Assembly: GCF_010435965.1 (NCBI RefSeq)
Contig: NZ_JAAGAA010000017.1
Location: 1-43,363 of the forward strand
Direction of reading: 5' to 3'
Origin: Crenobacter caeni
Lineage (GTDB): Bacteria; Pseudomonadota; Gammaproteobacteria; Burkholderiales; Chromobacteriaceae
DNA: 43,363 nt
Under the pieces are notes generated by a model. The model searched no databases. It had not been told where the DNA came from and was given only the letters and a program-made list of their open reading frames with translations. Below are positions 3,812 through 40,414 of the stretch, piece by piece. Each line of letters starts with the position of its first letter. Position 1 is the first letter of the stretch. The translations under genes were made by a program, and so were the position numbers.

Positions 3812-5977
3812 TCAGAACTTCACGCCCAGCGTCAGCTCGGCGTTGCGGCGGGCGCCGTAGGTGGCGTGGCCGCCGTACAGCCCCTCGTAGTACTTCTCGT
3901 CGAACAGGTTGTTCACGTTCAGCTGCGCCTTGTAGTGGCGCGTCTCGTACGCGAGCATCGCATTAGCGACAACGTATTCGGGCAGCACGTTGGTGTTGGC
4001 CTCGGTCGCATAGCGCTTGCCGACCCAGTTGGCGCCGCCGCCGACCGTCCACTCGGACGACAACCGGTAGCTGGTCCACAGGTTGGCGCTGAAATTCGGC
4101 GTGTTGCGCGGACGCTTGCCTTCGGTGCCCAGATGCGAGCCGGCCTTGTCGATGGTCGCGTCAAGGTAGGTCGCGCCGGCGAATACCTCCCAGCGCTCGG
4201 TCAGCCGCCCGGCGGCCTCGAATTCGACACCGTCGGTGTGGCGTTTGCCGGACAGCGTCACCACGTCCGGGATCAGCGGGTCGGTGTTACGCTCGTTGGT
4301 CTTCTCGATGCGGAACAGCGCGCCGCGCAGCAGCAGGTCGCCGTCCAGCAAGTCGAACTTGGCGCCCAGCTCCATATTGCGGTTCTTCTCGGGCGCGACC
4401 TTCTGGGTTGCCTTGTCCAGCGCGTACGCCTCGCCCGACGGGTTGAACGAGGTGCCGTAGCTCGCGTAGTAGGACTGCATCGCGTCCGGCTGCCAGATCA
4501 GGCCGGAGCGCCAGCTCCACACATTGTCGGTGCGGCTGGCGTCGTACGACGTCTTGCTATCCAGCACGCCAGTGTCCTTGTTGAAGTTGCGGGTGCGGTA
4601 GTCGCCGGACAGGCGGTCGAAACGCGCGCCGAGCAGCGCCTTCCACTCGCGGTTCAGCGTGACGAAGTCCTGCGCGTACAGCGCGGCGCCGTCGGCGACG
4701 TAGTCGCGGTGGCTGGTCTTGCCCCAGCGCAGATTCGGCGTATCGGACGGATTGGGCGCGCCGACGCTGGTCGACGGCTGGCTGGTGCCGGTCAGGTTGT
4801 CGTGGCGGTCGGTGTACGAGCGCTCGCGGGTCAGCTCCAGGCCGGCCAGCAGCTGGTGTTTCAAACCGGCCGCTTCCAGCTCGGTGGTGAAGTCGGTCTG
4901 GTTCGACCAGGTCTCGTCGACGCCGTTGCGCTGCTTGAGTTCACGCCTCATCACCGTCTGGCCGGTCACCGGCATGCCCGGTTTCAAGCCGGAGAGGCGC
5001 GGCGCGGTCGGCGCGGCGTCACGCTGGTAGCGCGCGTAGCGCAGCTGGTTCTTGACCTTGCTCTTGTCGCTGACGCGGTGCTCGAGCACGGCGGTGGCAA
5101 GGTCGGTCTTGGTGTCTTCGTAGTCGAGCCCGGACAGGCCGTAGTAGCGCTCGTACGGCACGTCGAGCGGCTCGAGCGTGTTCGGGTTGAACGGCACGCC
5201 GTAGTCGGTGTTGTTGTGCTCGGTCAGGTGCAGGTAGGACAGCGTCAGCGAGGTCGGGCCGTCCAGGCCGATTGCCACCGACGGCGCGAAGCCGTAGCGC
5301 TCGTCGTCGTGCACGGTGCGGCCGTTGTTCTTCTTCTCCGCCATCACGTTCAGGCGCAGCGCCACATCATCGGTTTCGGCGTAGTTGATGTCGGCGCTCA
5401 CCCGGCGCTTGTCCTCGGTGCCGATGGTCAGTTCGGCTTCCTGCTTGTTGCCGGCGTAGGGCTGCTTGCTGACCAGGTTGATCACGCCGCCGGTCGAGCC
5501 GCGGCCGAACAGCATCGAGCTCGGCCCCTTCAACACCTCGACCTTCTCGGTGTTGAAGAGGTCTCGCGTGTACTGGCCGATGTCGCGCGCGCCGTCGACG
5601 AACAGGTCGGTCGTCGTCGCGAAGCCGCGCATCACGATCTGGTCGCCGGTACGGCCGCCTTCGCCGGCGGCGAAGGTCAGCCCGGACACGTTCTTCAGCG
5701 CATCCTTCAGCGAATCCGCGCCCTGGTCTTCGATCAGTTGCTGGTTGACCACGGTCACCGACTGCGGGATGTCGCGCAGCTGCTGCCAGGTCTTGCCGAT
5801 GGTCGACGCGCCGGTGGCCAGCGTGCCGCGCTGGGCCTGCTCGCCGACCACCTCGACCGCCTGCAGCCGGGTGTCGGCGGCCTGGGCGAAGGCGGGGTTG
5901 AGGGCGAGGGCGAGGACGCCGGCGCCGACGACGGCACCGCGCTGCCCCACCAGCAGGGGGGCGGATTGCTTCTTCAT
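3812..5977 (-). CDS. TonB-dependent siderophore receptor (Fiu/PiuA-like)
   Basis: 721 residues. A signal peptide ends near residue 33 (AFAQA). It is followed by a TonB-box-like segment (LQAVEVVGE), a plug domain (about 55-170, with DIPQSVTVV and [20 protein letters not shown]) and a 22-strand outer-membrane barrel ending in the aromatic LTLGVKF required for assembly. Its neighbours tonB/exbB/exbD upstream and piuC downstream indicate import of catecholate-type ferric siderophores, with energy from the adjacent Ton complex. Fur control probably comes through the operon's head at 7837-7860. The ligand is inferred from the piuC linkage only. Confidence 0.95.
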
Positions 5978-6079
5978 GTTTGCTCTCTTCTTGTGTTTTC
6001 AGCGGCGGGGTAGAAAACCCGCCCGCGCCGGGCGCACGCAGCCCTCCCGCCGGGGCGGGATGCACGGACGGGGGGAAAC

Positions 6080-6487
6080 TCAACGTTCGGTGGTGATGAA
6101 GCCGATGCGGCTGATGCCGGCCTCGCGGGCCTGAGCGAGCGTGCGGGCGACCGCCTCGTAGCGCACGGCGCGGTCGGCCTGCAGTTCGAGTTCGAGCGCG
6201 GGGTCGGCAGCGAGGCGGGCCAGTTCGGCGGAAAGCTCAGCTTCACCCACCGCGCGCTCGTCCAGCCACAGCTGGCCTGCGGCGTCGATGGCCAGCGTCA
6301 CGCGCGTGTTCGCGCCGGCCTTCTGCGTACTGGCGGTTTTCGGCAGCTCGACGCGCACCGACTGCTGCATCAGCGGCATGCCGACGATGAAGACGACCAG
6401 CAGCACCAGCATCACGTCGACCAGCGGGGTCATGTTGATCTCGGAGAGCGGCGCCGCGCGCTCGCTGTCGAAATTACCGAACGCCAT
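6080..6487 (-). CDS. exbD: Biopolymer transport protein ExbD
   Basis: 135 residues. A short cytoplasmic N-terminus is followed by one membrane helix (PLVDVMLVLLVVFIVGM, about 21-37) containing the essential Asp (D24), and then by a periplasmic domain. With ExbB it forms the proton-driven stator that energises TonB. Its ATG lies inside the end of exbB (14-bp overlap), indicating translational coupling. The receptor gene follows 102 bp downstream. Confidence 0.95.
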   Translation of the reverse strand: MAFGNFDSERAAPLSEINMTPLVDVMLVLLVVFIVGMPLMQQSVRVELPKTASTQKAGANTRVTLAIDAAGQLWLDERAVGEAELSAELARLAADPALELELQADRAVRYEAVARTLAQAREAGISRIGFITTER

Positions 6488-7148
6488 CGCCGCTCCCTTC
6501 GGTCAACAGTTGCGCGTGCACGTCGTGCGCGAAATGGTCGAGCTGCTGCGCGATCAGCCGCTGCGCGCGGCCCAGCGCGTTGTACGCAAGTACTGCAGGG
6601 ATCGCCGCGGCGAGGCCGGCGGCGGTCGCGACCAGCGCCTCGCCGATCGGGCCGGCGACCACGGCTATCCCGGCCTGGCCGCTCACGCCGATGCCCAAGA
6701 GCGCGTGGTAGATGCCCCACACCGTGCCGAACAGGCCGATGAACGGCGCGGTCGAACCGATCGACGCCAGTAGCACCATGCCGGACTCCAGCCGGCCGGA
6801 CTCCAGCGACAGCCGCTTGCGCAGCGCTCGGGTCAGGAATTCGTCGACACCGCAGGCCTGGCCGAGCGAACGGCCGGCGTGGCTGCGGTAGTGGGCGAGG
6901 GCGGCGGTACCGTCGCGCACCAGACGCGCCGCCGGCGCGTCACTGTGCTCAAGCGCGGCCAGCGCGCCCGTCCAGTCGGGCGCGTCCCACAGTCGTGCCT
7001 CGGCCTCGCGGTTGGCGCGGCGCGCGCGCCACAACTGGACGGAACGGACGATCAGCAGCGTCCAGGTCAGGATCGACATCGCGATCAGGCTCAGGAAGAC
7101 GGTGGCGAGCACGGCGTCCCCCTGCTCGAAGACAAGCATCAGGTTCAT
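6474..7148 (-). CDS. exbB: Biopolymer transport protein ExbB
   Basis: 224 residues with the three-helix layout of the ExbB/TolQ/MotA family: helix 1 near 10-35, then a large cytoplasmic loop. Helices 2 and 3 contain the family block SIGSTAPFIGLFGTVWGIYH (about 130-149) and an Ala-rich segment with GEALVATAAGLAAAIPAV. It is the proton-channel pentamer of the Ton system. The start overlaps the tonB stop by ATGA, and the end overlaps exbD. Confidence 0.95.
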   Translation of the reverse strand: MNLMLVFEQGDAVLATVFLSLIAMSILTWTLLIVRSVQLWRARRANREAEARLWDAPDWTGALAALEHSDAPAARLVRDGTAALAHYRSHAGRSLGQACGVDEFLTRALRKRLSLESGRLESGMVLLASIGSTAPFIGLFGTVWGIYHALLGIGVSGQAGIAVVAGPIGEALVATAAGLAAAIPAVLAYNALGRAQRLIAQQLDHFAHDVHAQLLTEGSGDGVR

Positions 7149-7831
7149 GATTTGGCGGTTTTCAGCGAGAAATGGACGGGAACGACAAAACTGTGCGCAA
7201 CGCTCTGGCTGCCCAGCCGGGCCGGGATGAAGCGCCAGCGCGCCACCGCTTCGCGTGCGGCGCGGTCAAGCCGCGGAAAGCCGCTGCTGCGGAAGAGTTC
7301 GACGGAAGTCGCCTCGCCTGCCGCGCTGACGGCGACCCTGAGCTCGACGACGCCCTGTTCGGCCAGTTCGAGCGACAGCGGCGGATAGGCGGGCTTGGGA
7401 TTGTGCAGGTAGTCGCCGCGGTACTGCGGCGGCGTCAACGCAGGCGCATCACCTTCACCTGTGGCCGGTGCCCCTTGCCGCTCGCCGGAAGCGGACTGCG
7501 CGCCCGCGCTGGCTGCAGGGGCAGTGCTGGCCACGGCTGGTGCCGTGGCAGCCGGCTTGGCAGATGCCGGACGGGGTGCATCCGCCTTGGCTTTCGCTGC
7601 GACTTCGCGCGCCGGCACGCGCCTGGCCGGCGCAGCGGGTTTCGCCTGGGCGGGCGCGGCAGGGGCGGGCTGTGCCGCCACGGCTGGCGCAGGCTTGGCG
7701 AGCAGCGCGACTGCGACCACCGGCAAGGCCTCGGGCGGCTGCAGCGGCGGCGCATCCGCCGCGTACAGCAGCACCGCGTGGCCCAGGGTCACCGTGGCGA
7801 GCGTCGTCAGGACAAAGTAATTGCGTTTCAT
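7145..7831 (-). CDS. tonB: Energy transducer TonB
   Basis: 228 residues. An N-terminal membrane anchor (KRNYFVLTTLATVTLGHAV) is followed by a long Pro/Ala/Lys linker (about 40-145) that spans the periplasm. The C-terminal TonB domain contains YPPLSLELAEQGVVELRV and ARWRFIPA. The ATG at 7831 gives a normal anchor, but no Shine-Dalgarno is visible because the Fur-like palindrome sits directly before it. In-frame starts at 7861 (ATG) or 7867 (TTG) would add an Ile-rich tail. This is the first gene of the five-gene iron operon. Confidence 0.93.
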   Translation of the reverse strand: MKRNYFVLTTLATVTLGHAVLLYAADAPPLQPPEALPVVAVALLAKPAPAVAAQPAPAAPAQAKPAAPARRVPAREVAAKAKADAPRPASAKPAATAPAVASTAPAASAGAQSASGERQGAPATGEGDAPALTPPQYRGDYLHNPKPAYPPLSLELAEQGVVELRVAVSAAGEATSVELFRSSGFPRLDRAAREAVARWRFIPARLGSQSVAHSFVVPVHFSLKTAKS

Positions 7832-7836
7832 GGCGA

Positions 7837-7860
7837 TGATAATAACGCGAATTATTATCA
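7837..7860. promoter_or_regulatory. Fur-box-like palindrome controlling the tonB operon
   Basis: Two 9-base arms, TGATAATAA and its exact complement, are separated by 6 bases. The GATAAT/ATTATC hexamers are those of Fur boxes. A minus-strand GATAAT (7854-7859) can also serve as the -10 element, so bound Fur would block both polymerase and, given its 5-base distance from the ATG, initiation. Iron-repressed expression of the whole operon is the natural reading. Confidence 0.75.
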
Positions 7861-7904
7861 TTTCCAATAGTCATGAAAATTTGCAGAACCTTCACGTTCG
7901 CCAA

Positions 7905-10199: not shown

Positions 10200-10215
10200 G
10201 GTTTCACGTGAAACA
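10200..10215. promoter_or_regulatory. parS site 1 (ParB-binding palindrome)
   Basis: GTTTCACGTGAAAC (10201-10214) is a perfect 14-bp palindrome. With its flanks it differs from the consensus TGTTTCACGTGAAACA at one end base only. It is intergenic, between the M48 protease stop and hemJ. Confidence 0.9.
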
Positions 10216-11290: not shown

Positions 11291-12130
11291 GTGCCGTCTC
11301 CACGTCCTGCTCCCCCCATCGTACTGACCCTGTCGGCGGCCGACCCCTCGGGTGGCGCCGGCATCCAGGCTAGCGCCTTGACGCTCGCCAGCCTCGGCTG
11401 CCACCCGCTGTCGGTGGTCACCGCGCTGACCGTGCGCGACAGCCGCAACGTTGACGCGGTCCAGGTTGTCGACGCCGACTTCGTGCTCGACCAGGCGCGC
11501 ATGCTGCTCGAGGACATGCCCGTCGCCGCATTTTGCGTCGGCATGACCGGCAGCGCGGAAAATGTCGCGGCGATCACCGAGGTCGTCACCGACTACCCGG
11601 ACATCCCGCTGGTGTTCGATCCGGTACTCGCCGGCAGCGGCGAGTACGCGAGCGCCGAACTGGTCGACGCGATGCGCGAACTCCTGATCCCGCACGCGAC
11701 GCTGATCACGCCCAACCGGGCCGAGGCGCGCCACCTGGCGCTGAACGACCCGGACGAGGAAGACGAGCCGGAAGCGGCCGAATACGCACGCCGCCTGCTC
11801 GCGCTCGGCTGCGAATACGTGTTGCTGAGCGGCAGCCAGGATACCACCAGCGGCATCTGCAACCTCCTGTACGGCCCGCACGGCGAGATCCGCCGCGACC
11901 GCTGGCAGCGTCTGCCCGGCAGCTACTACGGCGCCGGCTGCACGCTGGCGGCTGCGATCGCCGGCATGGTCGCCGGCGGCGCACGGCTGCCCGAGGCGGT
12001 GCGCGAGGCGCAGGAGTACACCTGGCAGGCGCTGCGCTACGCGTTCCGCCCGGGCATGGGCCACGCGATCCCGGACCGGCTATTCTGGGCGAGTTCGGAC
12101 GCCGAGGACGACGTCAGCGGGGAAGACTGA
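11291..12130 (+). CDS. thiD: Hydroxymethylpyrimidine/phosphomethylpyrimidine kinase
   Basis: 279 residues of the ribokinase fold. It phosphorylates HMP and HMP-P with ATP in thiamine synthesis. Visible motifs are LTLSAADPSGGAGIQAS (glycine-rich N-terminus), DPVLAGSGEYAS and LITPNRAEA. The catalytic region reads GSYYGAGCTLAAAIAG, with the GxGC anion hole. GTG start with AAGAGG 7 bases upstream. The acidic tail (about 262-279) is longer than in many homologues. No TPP riboswitch is visible in the short upstream region. The last 17 bp overlap the 3' end of waaA in convergent orientation. Confidence 0.95.
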   Translation: MPSPRPAPPIVLTLSAADPSGGAGIQASALTLASLGCHPLSVVTALTVRDSRNVDAVQVVDADFVLDQARMLLEDMPVAAFCVGMTGSAENVAAITEVVTDYPDIPLVFDPVLAGSGEYASAELVDAMRELLIPHATLITPNRAEARHLALNDPDEEDEPEAAEYARRLLALGCEYVLLSGSQDTTSGICNLLYGPHGEIRRDRWQRLPGSYYGAGCTLAAAIAGMVAGGARLPEAVREAQEYTWQALRYAFRPGMGHAIPDRLFWASSDAEDDVSGED

Positions 12131-13391
12131 CACCTTGCGCGGCCAGCCGCGCCTCGACGTAGTCAGCAATCCGGCTACAGGCACCCTGGTGCGAGCGGCT
12201 GAACGCGAGCGCGGCCTCGTGCATCGCATACCGCCCGGCGTCGTCGCCCAGCAGGGTGCGGCAGGCGTCGACCAGCGCCGCCGCGTCGGCGACCTCGCGT
12301 GCGGCGCCGGCGGCCAGCGCGAGCCGGCTCGCCTCGGCAAAATTGAACATTGAAGGGCCGAACAGCACCGGCACGCCGACGCTGGCCGGCTCGATCAGGT
12401 TCTGCCCGCCTAGCGGCAGCAGGCTGCCGCCGACAAAGGCGAGGTCGGCCATCGCGTAGTACGCGAACAGCTCCCCCATCGAATCCCCGAGCCATACGCC
12501 GGTTTGCCGGCCGATCGCCATGCCTTCGCTGCGCCTTTGCAGCGCGAGACCACGCTCGGCGACCAGCGCCGCGACCGCATCGAAACGCTCGGGGTGGCGC
12601 GGCACCAACACCAGCAAGACATCGGACGGGCTGTGCGCCGCCCACGCATCCAGAATCAGCGCCTCTTCCCCTTCGCGCGTGCTGCCGCACACGACAACCT
12701 TGCGCTCGCCCACCGCTTCGCGGAACGCGCGCCCCAGTTCAACCTTGCCGGCTGGCGGCACGAAGTCGAACTTGGTGTTGCCGCAGACCTGCACGTCGGC
12801 CGCGCCAAGCGACGACAGCCTGGCCGCGTCGTCTTCGGTCTGCGCAGCCACCCCCGTCAGGCAACCCAAGGCCGGCGAGATCAGCGCGCTGACGCGGCGG
12901 TAGCCGCGCAGCGACTTTTCCGACAGCCGCGCGTTGGCGAGGAACAGCGGAATGTCGCGCTCGGCGCAGCCGTGGATCAGGTTCGGCCAGATCTCGGTTT
13001 CCATCAGGATGCCGACACGCGGCCGGTACGCGTCCAGAAAGCGCTGCACCGCCTCGCGGCTATCGTACGGCAGGTAGCGCACTTCGGCATCGGGATAGAG
13101 TTCGAGCGCGGTCGCGCGGCCGGTCGGCGTCATCTGCGTCAGCAACAGCGGCAGCTGCGGCCAGCGCCGGCGCAGCTCGGCGACCAGCGGCAGCGCCGCG
13201 CGCGTCTCGCCGACCGACACCGCGTGTATCCACAAGGCGTTCTGCTGCCGCGCCTCGGTGCGGGTCGAGAAGCGTTCGTCCCAATGCTCGAGGTAGGCGG
13301 GCGAGCGCTTGCCACGCCGCCTGAGGTAGGCCTTGGCCAGGGGCGAGAGCAGGCGCCACAGCGCCGAGTAAGGCGAGCGCCAGAAACTCAT
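12114..13391 (-). CDS. waaA: 3-deoxy-D-manno-octulosonic acid (Kdo) transferase
   Basis: 425 residues. An N-terminal membrane anchor region precedes a GT-B glycosyltransferase with two Rossmann-like halves. It transfers Kdo from CMP-Kdo to lipid A precursor at the inner membrane. Family blocks include IHAVSVGETRAALPLV, METEIWPNLI, TKFDF, FVGGSLLPLGGQNLIEP and GPSMFNF. The start overlaps the waaC stop by four bases (ATGA), so the two LPS-core genes are translationally coupled. Confidence 0.96.
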   Translation of the reverse strand: MSFWRSPYSALWRLLSPLAKAYLRRRGKRSPAYLEHWDERFSTRTEARQQNALWIHAVSVGETRAALPLVAELRRRWPQLPLLLTQMTPTGRATALELYPDAEVRYLPYDSREAVQRFLDAYRPRVGILMETEIWPNLIHGCAERDIPLFLANARLSEKSLRGYRRVSALISPALGCLTGVAAQTEDDAARLSSLGAADVQVCGNTKFDFVPPAGKVELGRAFREAVGERKVVVCGSTREGEEALILDAWAAHSPSDVLLVLVPRHPERFDAVAALVAERGLALQRRSEGMAIGRQTGVWLGDSMGELFAYYAMADLAFVGGSLLPLGGQNLIEPASVGVPVLFGPSMFNFAEASRLALAAGAAREVADAAALVDACRTLLGDDAGRYAMHEAALAFSRSHQGACSRIADYVEARLAAQGVSLPR

Positions 13392-14344
13392 GCCGTCCGT
13401 CTCGCCTGCAACAGCGCGTAGACCTCGTCCACATCCGGGCAGACGCCGGCACGGCCGACGTTGCACGCACGGGCGGTCTCGACGACGCCGGTCAGCGCCG
13501 GGTCGGTATCGGTGTAGATCGCTACCAGCGGCACGTCCTGCGCGTTGGCCAGATGAGTCAGGCCGGTGTCGACGCCGACCACCGCGGCCGCGTGGCCGAT
13601 CAAGCCGGCGGCCTCACGCAAGCGCATGCGCGGCGCAAGCACGGCGCCGGCAATCGCAGCCTGCAAGCGTGTCGCCCGCTCGGCTTCCTGTGCGTTGCCC
13701 CAAGGCAGCACGCAGGCTAGCCCTTCTTCTGCCAGCCGCGCACCCAGCGCGATCCAGTGCCGCTCGGGCCACTCCTTGGACGCCTTGCTCGTCGCATGCA
13801 ACAGCACCGCGTAAGGCTCGGCAGGCAGCCAGTCCGGCCGCTCGCCACGGCCAACGCCGAAGCGCGGCGGCCCTTCCACCGTATAGCCGAACACGCCAGC
13901 GAACAGCCTGCGGTTGCGCTCGATCGCCGACAATTCGCGGCTAACGCTGACTTGCTTGTCGTAAAAGCGGCTGGCCAGCGGCTCCCGGATACTGTGCCGG
14001 TCGTAACCGGCCAGCGGCCCGCCTGCGAGTTTCGCCGGCAAGGCGCTCTTGAGCAGGCCCTGGCTGTCGATCACGCAGTCCCACGGCCGCGCGCGCAGGG
14101 CTTCTCGCATGGCGGCCATCTGCTGCCAGCTCTGTTTGGCCAGCAGCGACTTGCGCCAACGCCGCCAGGCAATCGGAATCACCTCGCGGACAGCCGGATG
14201 CAGCGCCGCAATATCGGCAAAGGCTTCTTCCGCCAGCCAGCTCAACGCGACGTTGGGGTAATGCGCAACCAGGTCGGTAACGGCGGGCCAGGTGTGGATA
14301 AGGTCGCCCATCGACGAGGTGCGTACGATCAGCACATTCATCAT
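13388..14344 (-). CDS. waaC: Lipopolysaccharide heptosyltransferase I
   Basis: 318 residues of the GT9 family; it adds the first heptose to Kdo2-lipid A. The N-terminus MMNVLIVRTSSMGDLIHTWP is diagnostic, as are LLHATSKASKEWPERHW and GVDTGLTHLANA in the nucleotide-sugar-binding half. Two adjacent ATGs (14344, 14341) are possible. No Shine-Dalgarno is seen, and a good promoter places transcription start about 2 bases before the first ATG, so the mRNA may be leaderless. Codons for LIHT contain a perfect DnaA box (14293-14301), part of the adjoining origin-like region. Confidence 0.95.
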   Translation of the reverse strand: MMNVLIVRTSSMGDLIHTWPAVTDLVAHYPNVALSWLAEEAFADIAALHPAVREVIPIAWRRWRKSLLAKQSWQQMAAMREALRARPWDCVIDSQGLLKSALPAKLAGGPLAGYDRHSIREPLASRFYDKQVSVSRELSAIERNRRLFAGVFGYTVEGPPRFGVGRGERPDWLPAEPYAVLLHATSKASKEWPERHWIALGARLAEEGLACVLPWGNAQEAERATRLQAAIAGAVLAPRMRLREAAGLIGHAAAVVGVDTGLTHLANAQDVPLVAIYTDTDPALTGVVETARACNVGRAGVCPDVDEVYALLQARRTA

Positions 14345-14352
14345 GACCGCGC

Positions 14353-14381
14353 ATTGTACGAGTGCCCCTGTTGTTAACCAA
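14353..14381 (-). promoter_or_regulatory. Promoter of waaC-waaA at the edge of the origin region
   Basis: On the minus strand TTGGTT (14376-14381), a 17-base spacer and TACAAT (14353-14358) fit sigma-70. The predicted start at about 14346 almost coincides with the waaC ATG at 14344. Confidence 0.5.
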
Positions 14382-14770
14382 GCGGATTCCTGCGGTCGGT
14401 CCTGTTGAAAACTGCTTGTGGAAAACATCTGCCAAAGTTATCCACAATACACCAGCCTGCTGACCACCCCCCTTATCCATAGCTTTCAAAAACCGGAAAA
14501 CCCATGTTTTTCAAGGTGCTGCATGGTTATCCACAGAAAAGAGGATCCTTCATTAGTATCTTCAGTAAATACAAGAGAAAAACAAGAAAGGTAGGTCGAC
14601 ACGAAAAAAGCCTGGCAGCCATGTCCAGGGTAAGTCTGTCTCAAGTTGTGGATAAGCAGCCCGTCCGTACAGATCGCAAAACAATCCACAAGCCCTGCAA
14701 TGCTTAGGATGCGTGCTTCACACAGGAAACCAGGGTCTGCAACTGCTTGATTTGCACTGGACAAACATGC

Positions 14771-14838
14771 TTATCCACAGAAACGGACGGCCTTCTACTA
14801 GTTTCATCGTTTTTTACAAGTAAAAACAATAAACAGAT
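14771..14838 (+). other. Possible basal unwinding system: DnaA box, GC cluster, DnaA-trios, AT tract
   Basis: A perfect DnaA box (14771-14779) is followed by a GC-rich segment (CGGACGG, 14784-14790). Next comes CTTCTACTA (14792-14800), whose complement reads 3'-GAA-GAT-GAT, matching the DnaA-trio rule 3'-[G/A]A[T/A]. A T/A-rich run follows (14808-14838). This order is that described for bacterial origin unwinding elements. Three trios only, so the match is suggestive. Confidence 0.5.
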
Positions 14839-14854
14839 TGTGGCCGGGAAAGCT

Positions 14855-14870
14855 GGCATGCGCGCATGCC
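14855..14870. repeat. 16-bp perfect palindrome inside the origin region
   Basis: GGCATGCGCGCATGCC is perfectly self-complementary, and the flanking AGCTGG and CCAGCT partly extend it. It lies just beyond the AT-rich tract of the putative unwinding element. It could bind a dimeric origin regulator or be structural. Confidence 0.5.
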
Positions 14871-15167
14871 TAACCAGCTCGCACACGACTTGCAGACGAA
14901 AGCAACATGACAAACACGATAGACCCAACCTATCAGTGTCGGATTACCCACAGAAAAGTGGCTGTATCGATGTTCTGACGGGGTTTCTGACGCAGAAAAG
15001 CCCGGATTGGAGGGTTCTGGAAGATGGGGGACGACCGCGATTGGGCCGTTCAACAACGACGGACTTGGCCGGAAGGCACTGGAAGGGGCTGCACGATGCT
15101 GCTGGATCAGCAGCGGCAAATGCCCGGCCAGTACATTTGCCTCATGCTGGAAAAACGGCAGGCCTAC

Positions 15168-15851
15168 TTATCCACACCATTGGATGGGTGCGAACCCTTT
15201 TTGCTGCAACCAGGCATTCGCTTGGCTGAAATGCCTGCAACCGAAGAAGCCACGGTACGCCGACAGGGGGGAGGGATGTGGAGCCGTCAGCACCAGATGC
15301 TTGTTCGCGTCGATCAGCGGGCGTTTGCCGTGCGCCCAGCTGCCCCACAGCATGAACACGCAGGCTGTGCTGTGCACGCTGGTTTCGTGGATCAACGCGT
15401 CGCTGACCGCCTGCCAGCCGATCTTGCCGTGACTGCCTGCGCGGTCGGCGCTGACCGTCAGCACACTGTTGAGCAGCAGCACGCCCTGCTGCGCCCAGCT
15501 GCTCAGATCGCCGTTTGAGGGCGGCTGACAATCCAGGTCGCTGGCGATTTCCTTGTAGATGTTGCGCAGGCTGGGCGGGATGCGTACATCCGCGGGAACC
15601 GAAAAACTCAGTCCCATCGCCTCGTGGGCGCCGTGGTACGGGTCCTGGCCGAGGATGACCACCCGGATGTCGGCAGGGTCGCGGTAGGACAGGGCGGCCA
15701 GCGTCTGTTCACGCGGCGGGTAGATGGTTTCGCCGGCCGCCTGCAGTGTGGCAAGCGCGTGGTCGATGCCTTGCAGCCGGCTTTCCTGCAGTAGCGGCTG
15801 CCAGCCGGGGCGGACACGGGTGAGGGCGGGGGTCAGGTAATCCAGATTCAT
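15168..15851 (-). CDS. ung: Uracil-DNA glycosylase
   Basis: 227 residues of family-1 UNG. It excises uracil from DNA. The water-activating motif is GQDPYH (68-73, catalytic D70), the uracil-specificity segment is LLLN (125-128), and the DNA-intercalation loop is HPSPLS (192-197). The ATG at 15851 gives a normal length; no clear Shine-Dalgarno is present, and a terminator hairpin for the upstream genes lies only 15 bp before it. Its TAA stop codon is the first three bases of the outermost DnaA box. Confidence 0.97.
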   Translation of the reverse strand: MNLDYLTPALTRVRPGWQPLLQESRLQGIDHALATLQAAGETIYPPREQTLAALSYRDPADIRVVILGQDPYHGAHEAMGLSFSVPADVRIPPSLRNIYKEIASDLDCQPPSNGDLSSWAQQGVLLLNSVLTVSADRAGSHGKIGWQAVSDALIHETSVHSTACVFMLWGSWAHGKRPLIDANKHLVLTAPHPSPLSAYRGFFGCRHFSQANAWLQQKGFAPIQWCG

Positions 15852-19060: not shown

Positions 19061-19076
19061 CGTTCCACGTGAAACA
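19061..19076. promoter_or_regulatory. parS site 2
   Basis: GTTCCACGTGAAAC (19062-19075) matches the parS core with one arm carrying C instead of T. It sits directly after the rlhA stop codon and before the next gene. Confidence 0.82.
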
Positions 19077-23306: not shown

Positions 23307-23576
23307 GATGGAGACGACTGTTTGGTGTTATCAATATCTGAATCAACAAGTTAAGCTAACAATTGCGCCGTTTTTTTACTAGCGCTTGTTGCCAGGCTAT
23401 CTTGCTTCAAATGATGGGTGGTTTGGGGTTTTTGTTGGTGTTTTGTGTCTTTATTGTAATATTATGCTTTTTGAGTTGATTTTTTTCGACGCTTTGTTTC
23501 GTTTTTGCGACCACGTGGCTGGCGTTGAAACGATAAAGTGATTAGAATTGCGCGGTTTGTTCGGACGACCCCCGCA
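23307..23576. other. AT-rich intergenic region between HD-GYP and pyrBI
   Basis: 270 bp, distinctly richer in T and A than the rest of the window, with long T runs. It holds a good plus-strand promoter (23432-23460) for the pyrBI leader and presumably the minus-strand promoter of the HD-GYP gene. No gene is seen. Confidence 0.6.
23432..23460 (+). promoter_or_regulatory. Promoter of the pyrBI operon
   Basis: TTGTTG (23432-23437), a 17-base spacer and TGTAAT (23455-23460) fit sigma-70. Transcription would start near 23467, about 110 bases before the leader ATG and 290 before pyrB. Confidence 0.5.
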
Positions 23577-25556: not shown

Positions 25557-28500
25557 CTAGGCGGCACTCTGCTGGCTGTCTGCGGCCGCAAGCTCCGTAC
25601 GCAGCGCCTGCTGCGCCGCGCCGACCTCATGCCAGCTGGCCGCCTTCACATGGCCGTAACCGCGCACGCGCTGGTAGCTCTCCAGCAGCCGGCACGCCGT
25701 CTCCAGCGTGGCGGCGGACAGGCCTGACAGCACGGCGTCGGCGTCGCGTTCGAAGCGCGACACCAGCTCGCGTTCGAGCTTGCGGTCGGCCTGGTGCGCG
25801 AACGGGTCGAAGGCGGTGCCGCGCAGGAAGCGTAGCCTGGCGAGCAGGCCGAGCGCGTGCAGCAGCCACGGGCCGAAGCTCCGCTTGCGGCCGTCCTTGG
25901 GGACGAGCCACGCCGGCGCCAGCTGGAAGACGATGCGGTAGTCGCCCTCGAACTGTTTCTCCAGCGATTGCCGGAACTCGGGCTGGCTGTACAGGCGTGC
26001 CACCTCGTACTCGTCCTTGCTGGCGAGCAGCTGGTAGTAGCTGCGCGCGACGGTGCAGGTGAGGCGGGTGCTGCCCGGCGTGCGGGCTTCTTCCGCCGCC
26101 TGCACCCGTTCGACCAGCGCGCGGTGGCGGCTGGCCAGCGCGGCGTCCTGGTACGCGGTCAGTTCGCTGCCGTAGCGCTGCAGCAGCGCATGCGGTGTTT
26201 CACGTGGAACGAAGTGGACGACGTTGGCGCGGGTGACGCGGCGGGCAATTTCATCGGGCTGGTGCGCGGCATGGCGCCCCCAGGCGAAGGCGGCGAGGTT
26301 GAAGTCGATCGCGTTGCCGTTGATGCGGATCGCCTCGGAGATGGCCTGGCGCGATAGCGGGACCAGCCCGAGCTGCCACGCGTAGCCGAGCATGAACATA
26401 TTGCTGGCCAGCGCGTCGCCCTGCAGCGCGACGGCGGTCGCCGTCGCGTCGACTTCGTACACATGGTCGCGGCCGACCGCGGCGGCGAGGGTATCCAGCA
26501 TCGCCTGCGCCGGGAAGCCCTGGTCCGGGTTGCGCAGGAAGGCGCTGGTCGGCGACTCGAAACGGTTGACGACGACCCGGCTGAACCCCTCGCGCAGCTT
26601 GGCGAGCGCCTCTTCGGCCGCGCCGACCACCAGGTCGCAGGCGAGCACCAGGTCGGCGTCGCCGGCGGCGATACGCACCGCGTGCAGCGCCTGCCCCTCC
26701 GGCGCGATGCGCACGTGCGACCACACCGATCCGCCTTTCTGCGCGAGCCCAGCCATGTCGAGCACGGTCACGCCGGCGCCGTCCACCCACGCCGCCATGC
26801 CGAGTACCTGGCCGATGGTCACCACCCCGGTGCCGCCGACGCCGGCGATCATGATGCCGTACGGGCGGTCGAGTGTGGGCAGCGTCGGCTCCGGCAGCGG
26901 CGGCAGCGTGTCCGGGCTCAGCTTGTCCGCCGCCGGACGGCGCAGCCGGCCGCCTTCGACGATGACGAAGCTCGGGCAGAAGCCTTCGACGCAGCTGTAG
27001 TCCTTGTTGCAGCTTGACTGGTCGATGCGCCGCTTGCGGCCGAACGGCGTCTCGACCGGCAGCACCGACAGGCAGCCGGACTTCTGCGAGCAGTCGCCGC
27101 AGCCTTCGCACACCCGCTCGTTGATGAAGGCACGGCGCGCCGGGTCGGGGTACTGGCCCTTCTTGCGGCGTCGGCGCTTCTCGGCCGCGCAGGTCTGGTC
27201 GTGGATCAGCACGGTGACGCCGGCCGTCTCGCGCAGCTCGCGCTGCAGCCGGTCGAGCTCGCGGCGGTGGAATACCTCGACGCCGGGGGCGAGCGAGGCG
27301 AGCAGACCGTGCGCGACACGGTACTTCTCCGGCTCGTCGCTGGTGATCACGATGCGCGCGACGTTCTCGGCGGCGAGCTGGCGGGTGATCATCGGCACGT
27401 CGAGCGGGCCGTCGACATGCTGGCCGCCGGTCATCGCCACCGCGTCGTTGTACAGCAGCTTGTAGGTGATGTTGACGCCGGCGGCGACCGCGGCGCGGAT
27501 CGCCAGCAGGCCGCTGTGGAAATAGGTGCCGTCGCCCAGGTTGGCGAACACGTGGCGGGTGCGGGTGAACGGCGCCTGGCCGATCCACGGCACGCCTTCG
27601 CCGCCCATCTGGCTGAAGGTCTTGGTGTCCGGGTCTATCCACGTCGCCATGTAGTGGCAGCCGATGCCGGCCAGCGCCCGGCTGCCCGCGGGCACGCGGG
27701 TGCTGGTGTTGTGCGGGCAACCGGAGCAGTAGTGCGGCAGGCGCGCTAGCGTCTGCCGCGGTCGGGTCAGCTGCGCCTCCTTGTCCGCGTAAAAGCGCAG
27801 CCGGTCGTGGATGTTGACGCTGTCGACGATGTTGGCGAGGCGGTCGGCAATCGCGCGCGCGATGCGCGCCGGCGTCAGCTCGCCGGCGGCCGGCAGCAGC
27901 CAGTCGCCGTGCGGCAGCGTCCATTCGCCCTTCTCGGCGAACTTGCCGACCACGCGCGGGCGCACGTCCTCGCGCCAGTTGTACAGCTGTTCCTTCAGCT
28001 GGTATTCGATGATCTGCCGCTTCTCCTCGACGACCAGGATTTCTTCCAGCCCCTCGGCGAAGTGGCGGATGCCTTCCGGCTCGAGCGGCCAGCTCATGCC
28101 GACCTTGTAGATGCGCAGGCCGATGTCGGCGGCGAGCGCGTCGTCGATGCCCAGGTCGTCGAGCGCCTGGCGCACGTCGAGGTAGCTCTTGCCGGTGGTG
28201 ACGATGCCGAGACGCGCGTTCGGTGAGTCGAGCACCACCCGGTTGAGGCGGTTGGCGCGCGCGTAGGCGAGCGCCGCGTACAGCCGGTGGTGCAGCAGGC
28301 GTTCTTCCTGCGCGAGCGGCGGGTCCGGCCAGCGGATCGACACGCCGCCGTCCGGCAGCGGGAAGTCGGCGGGCAGCACCGGCGCGAAGCGCCCGGGCGA
28401 CACGTCGACGATGGCGCTGCTCTCTATGGTGTCGGTCACCGCCTTCAGCGCGACCCAGCAGCCGCTGTAGCGGCTCATCGCCCAGCCGTGCAGGCCGAAG

Positions 28501-29042
28501 TCGATCACTTCCTGCACGCCGGAGGGGTTGAGTACCGGGATCATGCTGGCGGCGAGGATGTGGTCGGACTGGTGCGAGAAGGTCGACGACTTGGCGGCGT
28601 GGTCGTCGCCGCACACCAGGAGCACGCCGCCCAAGGGGCTGCTGCCGGCCGCGTTGCCGTGCTTGAGCACGTCGGCCGAGCGGTCGACGCCGGGGCCCTT
28701 GCCGTACCACATCGAAAACACGCCGTCGACGGTCGCGCCCTCGAACAGCCCGAGCTGCTGGGTGCCCCATACCGCCGTCGCCGCCAGGTCCTCGTTGATG
28801 CCGCGGCGGAACACCACGTCGTGCGCGCGCAGGGGGTCGGCGGCCGCTTCCATTGCCAGGTCGACGCCGCCCAAGGGAGAACCCCGGTAGCCGGTGACGA
28901 AGCCGGCGGTGTTCAGGCCGCGCGCGCGGTCGTGGTCGCGTTGCAGCATGGTCAGCCTGACCAGTGCCTGGATGCCGCTCATCAGTACCAGCCCGGTCGG
29001 CTGCAAGTACTTGTCGGCGAGGGTTGCATGCCGGATCGACAT
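25557..29042 (-). CDS. Indolepyruvate:ferredoxin oxidoreductase, fused large form
   Basis: 1161 residues fusing the parts of IorA and IorB. It decarboxylates aryl-2-oxoacids such as indolepyruvate to acyl-CoA, reducing ferredoxin. The order is an N-terminal pyrimidine-binding domain, SGCPHNTS (about 442-449), a TPP-binding region (GDGTYFHSGLLAIRAA to NDAVAMTGGQH), and an iron-sulfur segment CEGCGDCSQKSGC (about 641-653). The gamma-type domain (GVGGTGVVTIGQVLGMAA) and a C-terminal extension follow. AGGAG lies upstream of the ATG. A parS site lies within the coding sequence at 26197-26210. It is probably used in amino-acid catabolism. Confidence 0.93.
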   Translation of the reverse strand: MSIRHATLADKYLQPTGLVLMSGIQALVRLTMLQRDHDRARGLNTAGFVTGYRGSPLGGVDLAMEAAADPLRAHDVVFRRGINEDLAATAVWGTQQLGLFEGATVDGVFSMWYGKGPGVDRSADVLKHGNAAGSSPLGGVLLVCGDDHAAKSSTFSHQSDHILAASMIPVLNPSGVQEVIDFGLHGWAMSRYSGCWVALKAVTDTIESSAIVDVSPGRFAPVLPADFPLPDGGVSIRWPDPPLAQEERLLHHRLYAALAYARANRLNRVVLDSPNARLGIVTTGKSYLDVRQALDDLGIDDALAADIGLRIYKVGMSWPLEPEGIRHFAEGLEEILVVEEKRQIIEYQLKEQLYNWREDVRPRVVGKFAEKGEWTLPHGDWLLPAAGELTPARIARAIADRLANIVDSVNIHDRLRFYADKEAQLTRPRQTLARLPHYCSGCPHNTSTRVPAGSRALAGIGCHYMATWIDPDTKTFSQMGGEGVPWIGQAPFTRTRHVFANLGDGTYFHSGLLAIRAAVAAGVNITYKLLYNDAVAMTGGQHVDGPLDVPMITRQLAAENVARIVITSDEPEKYRVAHGLLASLAPGVEVFHRRELDRLQRELRETAGVTVLIHDQTCAAEKRRRRKKGQYPDPARRAFINERVCEGCGDCSQKSGCLSVLPVETPFGRKRRIDQSSCNKDYSCVEGFCPSFVIVEGGRLRRPAADKLSPDTLPPLPEPTLPTLDRPYGIMIAGVGGTGVVTIGQVLGMAAWVDGAGVTVLDMAGLAQKGGSVWSHVRIAPEGQALHAVRIAAGDADLVLACDLVVGAAEEALAKLREGFSRVVVNRFESPTSAFLRNPDQGFPAQAMLDTLAAAVGRDHVYEVDATATAVALQGDALASNMFMLGYAWQLGLVPLSRQAISEAIRINGNAIDFNLAAFAWGRHAAHQPDEIARRVTRANVVHFVPRETPHALLQRYGSELTAYQDAALASRHRALVERVQAAEEARTPGSTRLTCTVARSYYQLLASKDEYEVARLYSQPEFRQSLEKQFEGDYRIVFQLAPAWLVPKDGRKRSFGPWLLHALGLLARLRFLRGTAFDPFAHQADRKLERELVSRFERDADAVLSGLSAATLETACRLLESYQRVRGYGHVKAASWHEVGAAQQALRTELAAADSQQSAA
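26196..26211. promoter_or_regulatory. parS site 3, inside coding sequence
   Basis: GTTTCACGTGGAAC (26197-26210) has the same core as the other four sites, and is the only one within a gene (the indolepyruvate oxidoreductase, C-terminal part). Confidence 0.8.
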
Positions 29043-32431: not shown

Positions 32432-32447
32432 GGTTCCACGTGAAACC
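32432..32447. promoter_or_regulatory. parS site 4
   Basis: GTTCCACGTGAAAC (32433-32446), the same 14-mer as site 2, intergenic between the zinc-ribbon gene and the GntR gene. Confidence 0.8.
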
Positions 32448-40398: not shown

Positions 40399-40414
40399 CG
40401 TTCCACGTGGAACA
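40399..40414. promoter_or_regulatory. parS site 5
   Basis: GTTCCACGTGGAAC (40400-40413) is a perfect palindrome of the parS type, intergenic, right after the stop of the next minus-strand gene. Confidence 0.82.

Follow-up and report, generated by a model that had tools for sequence, protein, structure and literature searches.

The chromosomal replication origin (oriC) of Crenobacter caeni very probably lies between waaC and ung, separated from dnaA. The DNA on which this reading is based is contig NZ_JAAGAA010000017.1 (assembly GCF_010435965.1; 43,363 nt, hereafter the window), in which a dense cluster of DnaA boxes occupies positions 14293–15176. The argument, made from sequence, combines this cluster with a switch in GC skew, an array of parS-like sites, a dif-like site roughly opposite the cluster in two complete members of the family, conserved box spacing and two conserved sequence modules. 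A preliminary description of the locus had offered two explanations: an oriC parted from dnaA in this lineage, or a large locus that titrates DnaA in the manner of datA, the E. coli cluster of DnaA boxes that lies off dnaA and is not an origin. The first explanation gains support from the skew minima, the parS array, the placement of dif in the two complete relatives, and a cluster and spacing found family-wide. The separation itself therefore stands, but its restriction to one lineage does not, since the whole family shares it.

The window contains 10 matches to the DnaA box TTATCCACA at up to one mismatch, nine of which fall within the 884 bp of the cluster. In 100 shuffled windows the same search returned a mean of 1.72 and a maximum of 6 matches. 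Perfect boxes number 15 in the 3,404,533-base draft genome (six of them in the cluster), and a reversed-pattern control gave 5. The cluster consists of six perfect and three one-mismatch boxes. The first perfect box (14293–14301, minus strand) lies within the 5' end of waaC. It is followed by the one-mismatch box TTTTCCACA (14417–14425, minus), which anchors our relative numbering (r = 0), a perfect box at r = +21 (14438–14446, plus), the one-mismatch box TTATCCATA (14473–14481, plus), a perfect box at 14527–14535 (plus), another at r of about +230 (14647–14655, minus), a further one at 14771–14779 (plus) and the one-mismatch box TTACCCACA (14944–14952, plus). The last perfect box (15168–15176, plus) overlaps the final codons of ung including its stop (TGT GGA TAA).

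Between the two genes there is 0.83 kb with no evident gene, just short overlapping frames. The boxes form a cluster in intergenic DNA, as expected of a bacterial oriC. This gap is 50% AT compared to 33% for the window, and GC content drops to 0.42–0.53 in 150-bp windows starting at 14300–14900, against 0.67 for the whole window. The box count, the AT-rich gene-free DNA and the boxes reaching into both coding ends were all features of the preliminary description, and all were reproduced. Its claim that 13 of 15 genes to the left are on the minus strand was not: a crude open reading frame (ORF) caller gave 9 of 13 within 14 kb. Rfam at gathering thresholds found a tRNA alone in the window, and a promoter and terminator scan of 14200–15300 gave no match.

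As the preliminary description implied, dnaA is not beside the cluster. The sole full-length DnaA gene of this genome lies on another contig (C9 of G000, the C. caeni assembly) in the order rpmH-dnaA-dnaN-gyrB, with all four genes confirmed by family models. The dnaA and dnaN frames are separated by 39 bp, and the 19.5 kb read on this contig hold one perfect box, upstream of dnaA. An origin adjacent to dnaA would be expected to have a box cluster beside the gene; none was found there. Exactly one perfect box within 1.5 kb of dnaA was also found in 14 of the 15 family genomes read. The fifteenth locus (G011) is cut at the record start, and one perfect box lies at the other end of the record.

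In three genus mates dnaA and the cluster share a contig, at 36.6 and 71.2 kb (G002), 5.4 and 62 kb (G001), and 251 and 191–193 kb (G003), respectively, which places them 34–59 kb apart. BLAST of the window and C9 against contig C4 of G002 leaves about 2 kb between the right end of the window and the C9 block that contains dnaA; beyond this block, C9 continues for 11 kb without a match on G002:C4. If C9 and the window adjoin as in G002, dnaA of C. caeni would lie at least about 43 kb from the cluster. Around the dnaA block, about 22 kb of G002:C4 (about 10420–32426) are absent from the C. caeni genome (at about 11250–11296 of C9), and nothing on C9 beyond 20451 (50–55% GC) matches G002:C4 over more than 400 bp. 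These differences are possibly genomic islands. The C. caeni genome also encodes Hda, the regulatory inactivator of DnaA (G000:C8:36257–36856; TIGR03420, 237 bits, above cut-off), which in E. coli inactivates DnaA after initiation.

In most of the genomes read for it, strand composition places the change in replication polarity at the cluster. On a 258-kb contig of a genus mate (G003:C32), GC skew is negative in all 6-kb bins up to 192 kb and positive in all later bins. The cumulative minimum (192431) falls inside the cluster. At dnaA, positioned at 251 kb and 59 kb away from the cluster, the skew does not switch. The minimum also lies inside the cluster on G002:C4 (71502), in the window (14951) and in G011 (3472212), where the 220 kb covered include dnaA and the skew turns negative at that gene. 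For the complete chromosome G022, skew was sampled in 20 stretches. It is negative over the arc that runs from 3.6 Mb across position 0 to 1.156 Mb, and beyond that point, up to 3.2 Mb, it is mostly positive; within the 40 kb read there, the minimum is 123 bp away from the cluster. The minima in the window, G002, G003 and G022 are found about 105–305 bp past the box at the equivalent of 14771, which opens module B (see below). A cumulative minimum with a switch in strand bias is the behavior expected of a bacterial oriC. The preliminary description had suggested this check, and in relatives it came out for the cluster in G003, G002, G011 and G022, and less cleanly in G008, where the minimum is 11 kb off; in G015 the minimum is nearer dnaA.

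The same data bear on the idea of a datA-like locus that titrates DnaA while the true origin sits at rpmH-dnaA-dnaN. Dense high-affinity boxes apart from dnaA would suit such a locus, as would the one perfect box upstream of dnaA and the local skew minimum in G015. A datA-type locus predicts no skew switch, however, and the skew switches at the cluster rather than at dnaA in G003, G002, G022 and G011. Counting G011, one perfect box was seen at all 15 dnaA loci of the family. Given also the parS-like and dif-like sites described below, we reject this alternative as very unlikely. A second alternative, that the cluster and the dnaA locus are both active origins, could draw on the one box and the GC dip upstream of dnaA (150-bp minimum 0.46). 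It would have to accommodate the single skew switch on the 258-kb G003 contig, the lack of an origin-type second switch at dnaA in G011, and a box count at dnaA below that of any DnaA-dependent oriC known to us; we know of none with as few as one box. We consider two origins highly improbable and reject this model as well.

Five parS-like sites with up to two mismatches occur in the window, compared to 0.06 expected, spaced 6–9 kb apart. Four of them have one mismatch (10200–10215, 19061–19076, 26196–26211 and 40399–40414) and one has two (32432–32447); all are recorded on the plus strand, which carries little meaning for a palindromic consensus. G003:C32 has four sites at up to one mismatch, every one of them 2–19 kb from the cluster and none near dnaA; the dnaA contig C9 of C. 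caeni has no parS-like site at this threshold. This distribution is difficult to reconcile with a datA-like role for the cluster. Stretches read in G011 and G008 contain five and three sites, spread over at least 38 kb around the cluster, and at least one site is present in six of eight further regions of 17–20 kb. We also considered an origin at the par genes. This candidate was rejected: 262–343 kb separate parB from the cluster in the complete genomes G011, G015 and G022, and in the four genomes of the genus parB is on a contig other than that of the cluster. The parS-like sites stay at the cluster although parB lies far off or on a different contig.

A site resembling dif, searched for by consensus, is 31 kb (G022) and 73 kb (G015) away from where a terminus directly opposite the cluster would be; with dnaA as the reference the offsets are 163 and 176 kb. 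An oriC roughly opposite dif is thus seen in these relatives only, the genome of C. caeni being a draft; no dif-like match was found in G011. The closer fit of the cluster in both relatives again speaks against placing the true origin at dnaA.

The arrangement is conserved far beyond C. caeni. With a cluster defined as four or more perfect boxes in a single stretch of up to 2.7 kb, 24 of the 25 family genomes in our set (C. caeni included) contain one, among them all four genomes of the genus. The remaining genome (G020) is truncated at this place: its contig breaks off 11 kb from ung, close to a single perfect box. The gene waaA adjoins the cluster in 14 of 15 regions read; in the exception (G009) waaA and waaC were not recovered by the ORF caller, probably a calling failure. 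Eight more genomes were searched with waaC as anchor, and altogether the cluster lies beside waaA or waaC in at least 22 genomes, with the flanks of G017 left out. On the other flank, a glycosyltransferase family 2 gene, checked in one case by Pfam, is present in each of the 11 regions that belong to other genera. This gene is not found at that flank in the four genomes of the window's genus, which is why the origin abuts ung there. Outside the genus, 22 of 23 ung loci have no perfect box within 1.5 kb, and the ung locus of Vogesella oryzae (closest named Ung among the records compared, 68%) has no box within 10 kb. We therefore take waaA/waaC as the more constant neighbor. Outside the family, the best waaC match in 14 genomes (12 above the family cut-off) has no perfect box within 1.5 kb.

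The spacing of the boxes is conserved too. Boxes recur near −124, −48, −14, 0, +21, +110, +231, +267, +355 and +580 relative to 14417 in 20 of the 23 genomes placed. Some genomes have insertions of about 10–65 bp, no genome need hold all ten boxes, and the window has six of the ten at up to one mismatch. Most of the 20 genomes have a box at r of about −115 to −125. The spacing script requires a box at position 0 and misplaced three of the 23 genomes (G011, G019 and G024, all of genus g9); by eye, G024 shows the same series. This conservation bears on the proposal that a replicon or prophage origin was inserted between core genes, for which an AT-rich patch within a GC-rich genome would be a natural sign. 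The 0.83-kb gap contains no evident gene, and the same cluster with the same spacing recurs in 20 family genomes, mostly beside the same lipopolysaccharide (LPS) genes, and the cluster in all four genomes of the genus. We reject an inserted replicon as almost certainly wrong.

Similar box groups were noted elsewhere. Genomes of genus g7 carry a further, smaller set of perfect boxes 11–12 kb from the origin cluster (four at G017:C151:3182–3431, three at G022:C1:1143071–1144028), which could be a titration site. The complete genome G028, from another family of the order, has four perfect boxes at G028:C1:1695269–1695399, 414 kb from dnaA (G028:C1:1281501). This group coincides with the sampled skew switch (minimum 1700308, 5 kb off) and lies about 4 kb from the point opposite a dif-like site. 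These three features of G028 indicate that separation of oriC from dnaA is not confined to the window's family. In G031, from a third family, four perfect boxes (G031:C1:5138163–5138719) lie about 48 kb from dnaA, with ambiguous skew nearby; this group is 43 kb, and dnaA 92 kb, from the point opposite a dif-like site.

Two of the plus-strand boxes, near +110 and +355, each open a module with the same layout: a perfect box, a 12-nt spacer, a conserved motif of the type CTTC..CAGTTTC[AT]TC and an AT tract. Module A (14527–14590) carries the motif CTTCATTAGTATCTTCA and module B (14771–14836) the motif CTTCTACTAGTTTCATC; both are on the plus strand, co-oriented and about 244 bp apart. Across 20 genomes, the spacer is poorly conserved (0.35 bits per column in A, 0.47 in B). 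The 18-nt motif reaches 0.88 (A) and 1.34 bits (B), compared to 0.64 and 0.60 for the 40 nt before the boxes, so that the signal is clear for motif B and modest for motif A. The AT tracts average 75% (A) and 81% AT (B) in the same genomes. A module B pattern matched 18 of 23 family origins, the G017 origin in addition, and nothing else in 3.15 Mb, much of it from the same genomes. It missed G004, G007, G015, G016 and G021, where diverged copies are visible by position. Compared within one origin, the flanks of boxes A and B are closer to each other than to any control piece in 17 of 20 genomes (exceptions G007, G015 and G016). Also in 17 of 20, the weakest 40-mer of the origin starts 20–35 nt after one of these boxes (12 at B, 5 at A; exceptions G008, G010 and G023), which corresponds to the AT-rich unwinding element that an oriC should have beside a box. 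As the genomes are related, these counts are not independent.

Module B is the predicted unwinding site in the window. On the opposite strand it has four triplets that resemble DnaA-trios (GAA-GAT-GAT-CAA) behind the 12-nt spacer, and it thereby has the box, the spacer of up to 16 nt and the three or more middle-A triplets that define a module of the basal unwinding system (BUS). A narrow pattern caught 7 of 23 module B rows, with runs of two to four triplets among these, and module A of the window has a run of two. We regard the motif and spacing of module B as firmly established and those of module A as less firmly so; the DnaA-trio label for module B is an assignment of no more than moderate confidence. 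We tentatively suggest, at somewhat below an even chance, that A and B are paralogous, co-oriented unwinding units and that selection has maintained the pair in at least nine genera, with each unit opening its own bubble or loading one of two helicases. Such paired units would provide a built-in way to load both helicases at an origin now separate from dnaA.

Several observations weigh against an origin at the cluster or against the way we assign its parts. The window's own skew is noisy and positive at 1–9 kb as well. One of the stretches sampled in G022, to the right of the origin at 1.26 Mb, has negative skew, and in G008 the minimum misses the cluster by 11 kb, its distance to dnaA being 171 kb. 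In G015, where the skew is very weak, the minimum over 180 kb is 13 kb away from dnaA, compared to 87 kb for the cluster; 29 stretches place the switch only roughly, at 1.10–1.24 Mb, and stray values occur at 0.80 and 1.42 Mb, so that this genome does not decide. Near the cluster, G015 has no parS-like site with at most one mismatch, and the 17–20 kb regions of G006 and G007 also have none; at two mismatches, G015 has eight sites within 80 kb left of the cluster and one at 1.51 Mb. With regard to the modules, a trio run of four or more follows 1.5% of window positions, which makes the trio reading of module B weak alone. Its third triplet is broken in several genera, and the weak run of module A fits the triplet rule poorly. 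Finally, 40-mers starting at 23444–23451 are at least as AT-rich as the predicted unwinding site.

With oriC at the cluster, initiation probably proceeds as follows. DnaA, made from the rpmH-dnaA-dnaN-gyrB locus on the other contig, would bind the boxes lying between waaC and ung. Starting from two plus-strand boxes, 14527 and 14771, it probably extends over the motif 12 nt downstream, at B and perhaps also at A. The AT tracts would then melt at about 14560–14590 and 14800–14836, the helicase would be loaded, and forks would leave both ways. ParB on the flanking parS sites may segregate the new origins. The cluster contains four GATC sites in its 884 bp, about chance level, which speaks against sequestration of the SeqA type.

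The genes around the origin are assigned by family models. To the left, waaC (LPS heptosyltransferase I; TIGR02193, 386.5 bits) extends over 13388–14341 on the minus strand, with a start possibly at 14344, and is followed by waaA/kdtA (Kdo transferase; 12114–13412, minus; NF004386, 595.8 bits). To the right, ung (uracil-DNA glycosylase; NF003589, TIGR00628) occupies 15168–15851 on the minus strand. Further left, a TonB-dependent receptor, an ExbB-type and a TonB-type protein are encoded in a row (3812–7867, minus), an arrangement kept left of the origin across the genus. An 1161-residue protein with pyruvate ferredoxin oxidoreductase-type and DUF6537 domains (25557–29042, minus) is probably an indolepyruvate-type oxidoreductase.

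The location of the origin has practical consequences. Genome finishing and coverage-based growth estimates often put the origin at dnaA, which would be wrong for this family and, judged by skew and dif, also for G028, in which the two are 414 kb apart. The conserved spacing and duplicated module offer a natural comparison for asking which parts of an origin are required by DnaA and whether a second opening site is there to serve a second helicase. Among the open-literature papers listed, we found no description of the waaC-side location or of the paired module, in a search with subscription papers and DoriC entries outside its scope, so that a database prediction may exist. The locus is very probably an ordinary oriC in an unusual and conserved place, with a double opening element that is possibly new.

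In E. coli, oriC is found about 44 kb from dnaA. Like the C. caeni cluster, this origin (gidA-mioC) has several DnaA boxes in one intergenic region off dnaA and a skew switch at that place. The C. caeni origin differs in its flanks, which are waaC and ung (waaA/waaC and a glycosyltransferase gene in other genera) instead of gidA and mioC, in the absence of a SeqA-type GATC cluster, and in having two co-oriented box-motif-AT modules instead of one unwinding region. In contrast to the cluster, datA, which likewise gathers DnaA boxes away from dnaA, would not mark a skew minimum or a parS array. That the E. coli origin is apart from dnaA is stated in two reports (PMC4285127, PMC8287927). The second of these describes the BUS of Bacillus subtilis and many other bacteria with a spacer peak of 10–13 nt (PMC8287927). 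Module B matches that description in its box, 12-nt spacer, middle-A triplets on the opposite strand and AT-rich DNA; the differences from the BUS as outlined there are the two copies about 244 bp apart, the third triplet that is broken in several genera, and the poor fit of module A. For Laribacter hongkongensis, a probable relative, an oriC with eight DnaA boxes has been predicted by Ori-Finder (PMC3135505), a likeness at the level of that description. The cyanobacterium Synechococcus lividus PCC 6715 also has a box cluster off dnaA and dnaN that is taken as oriC, according to DoriC 10.0 (PMC6323995). Its boxes are of the TTTTCCACA type and it is one exception among its relatives; in the case described here the location is common to the entire family. 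Separation of oriC from dnaA is already known in kind; the location beside waaC and the double module are the variant.

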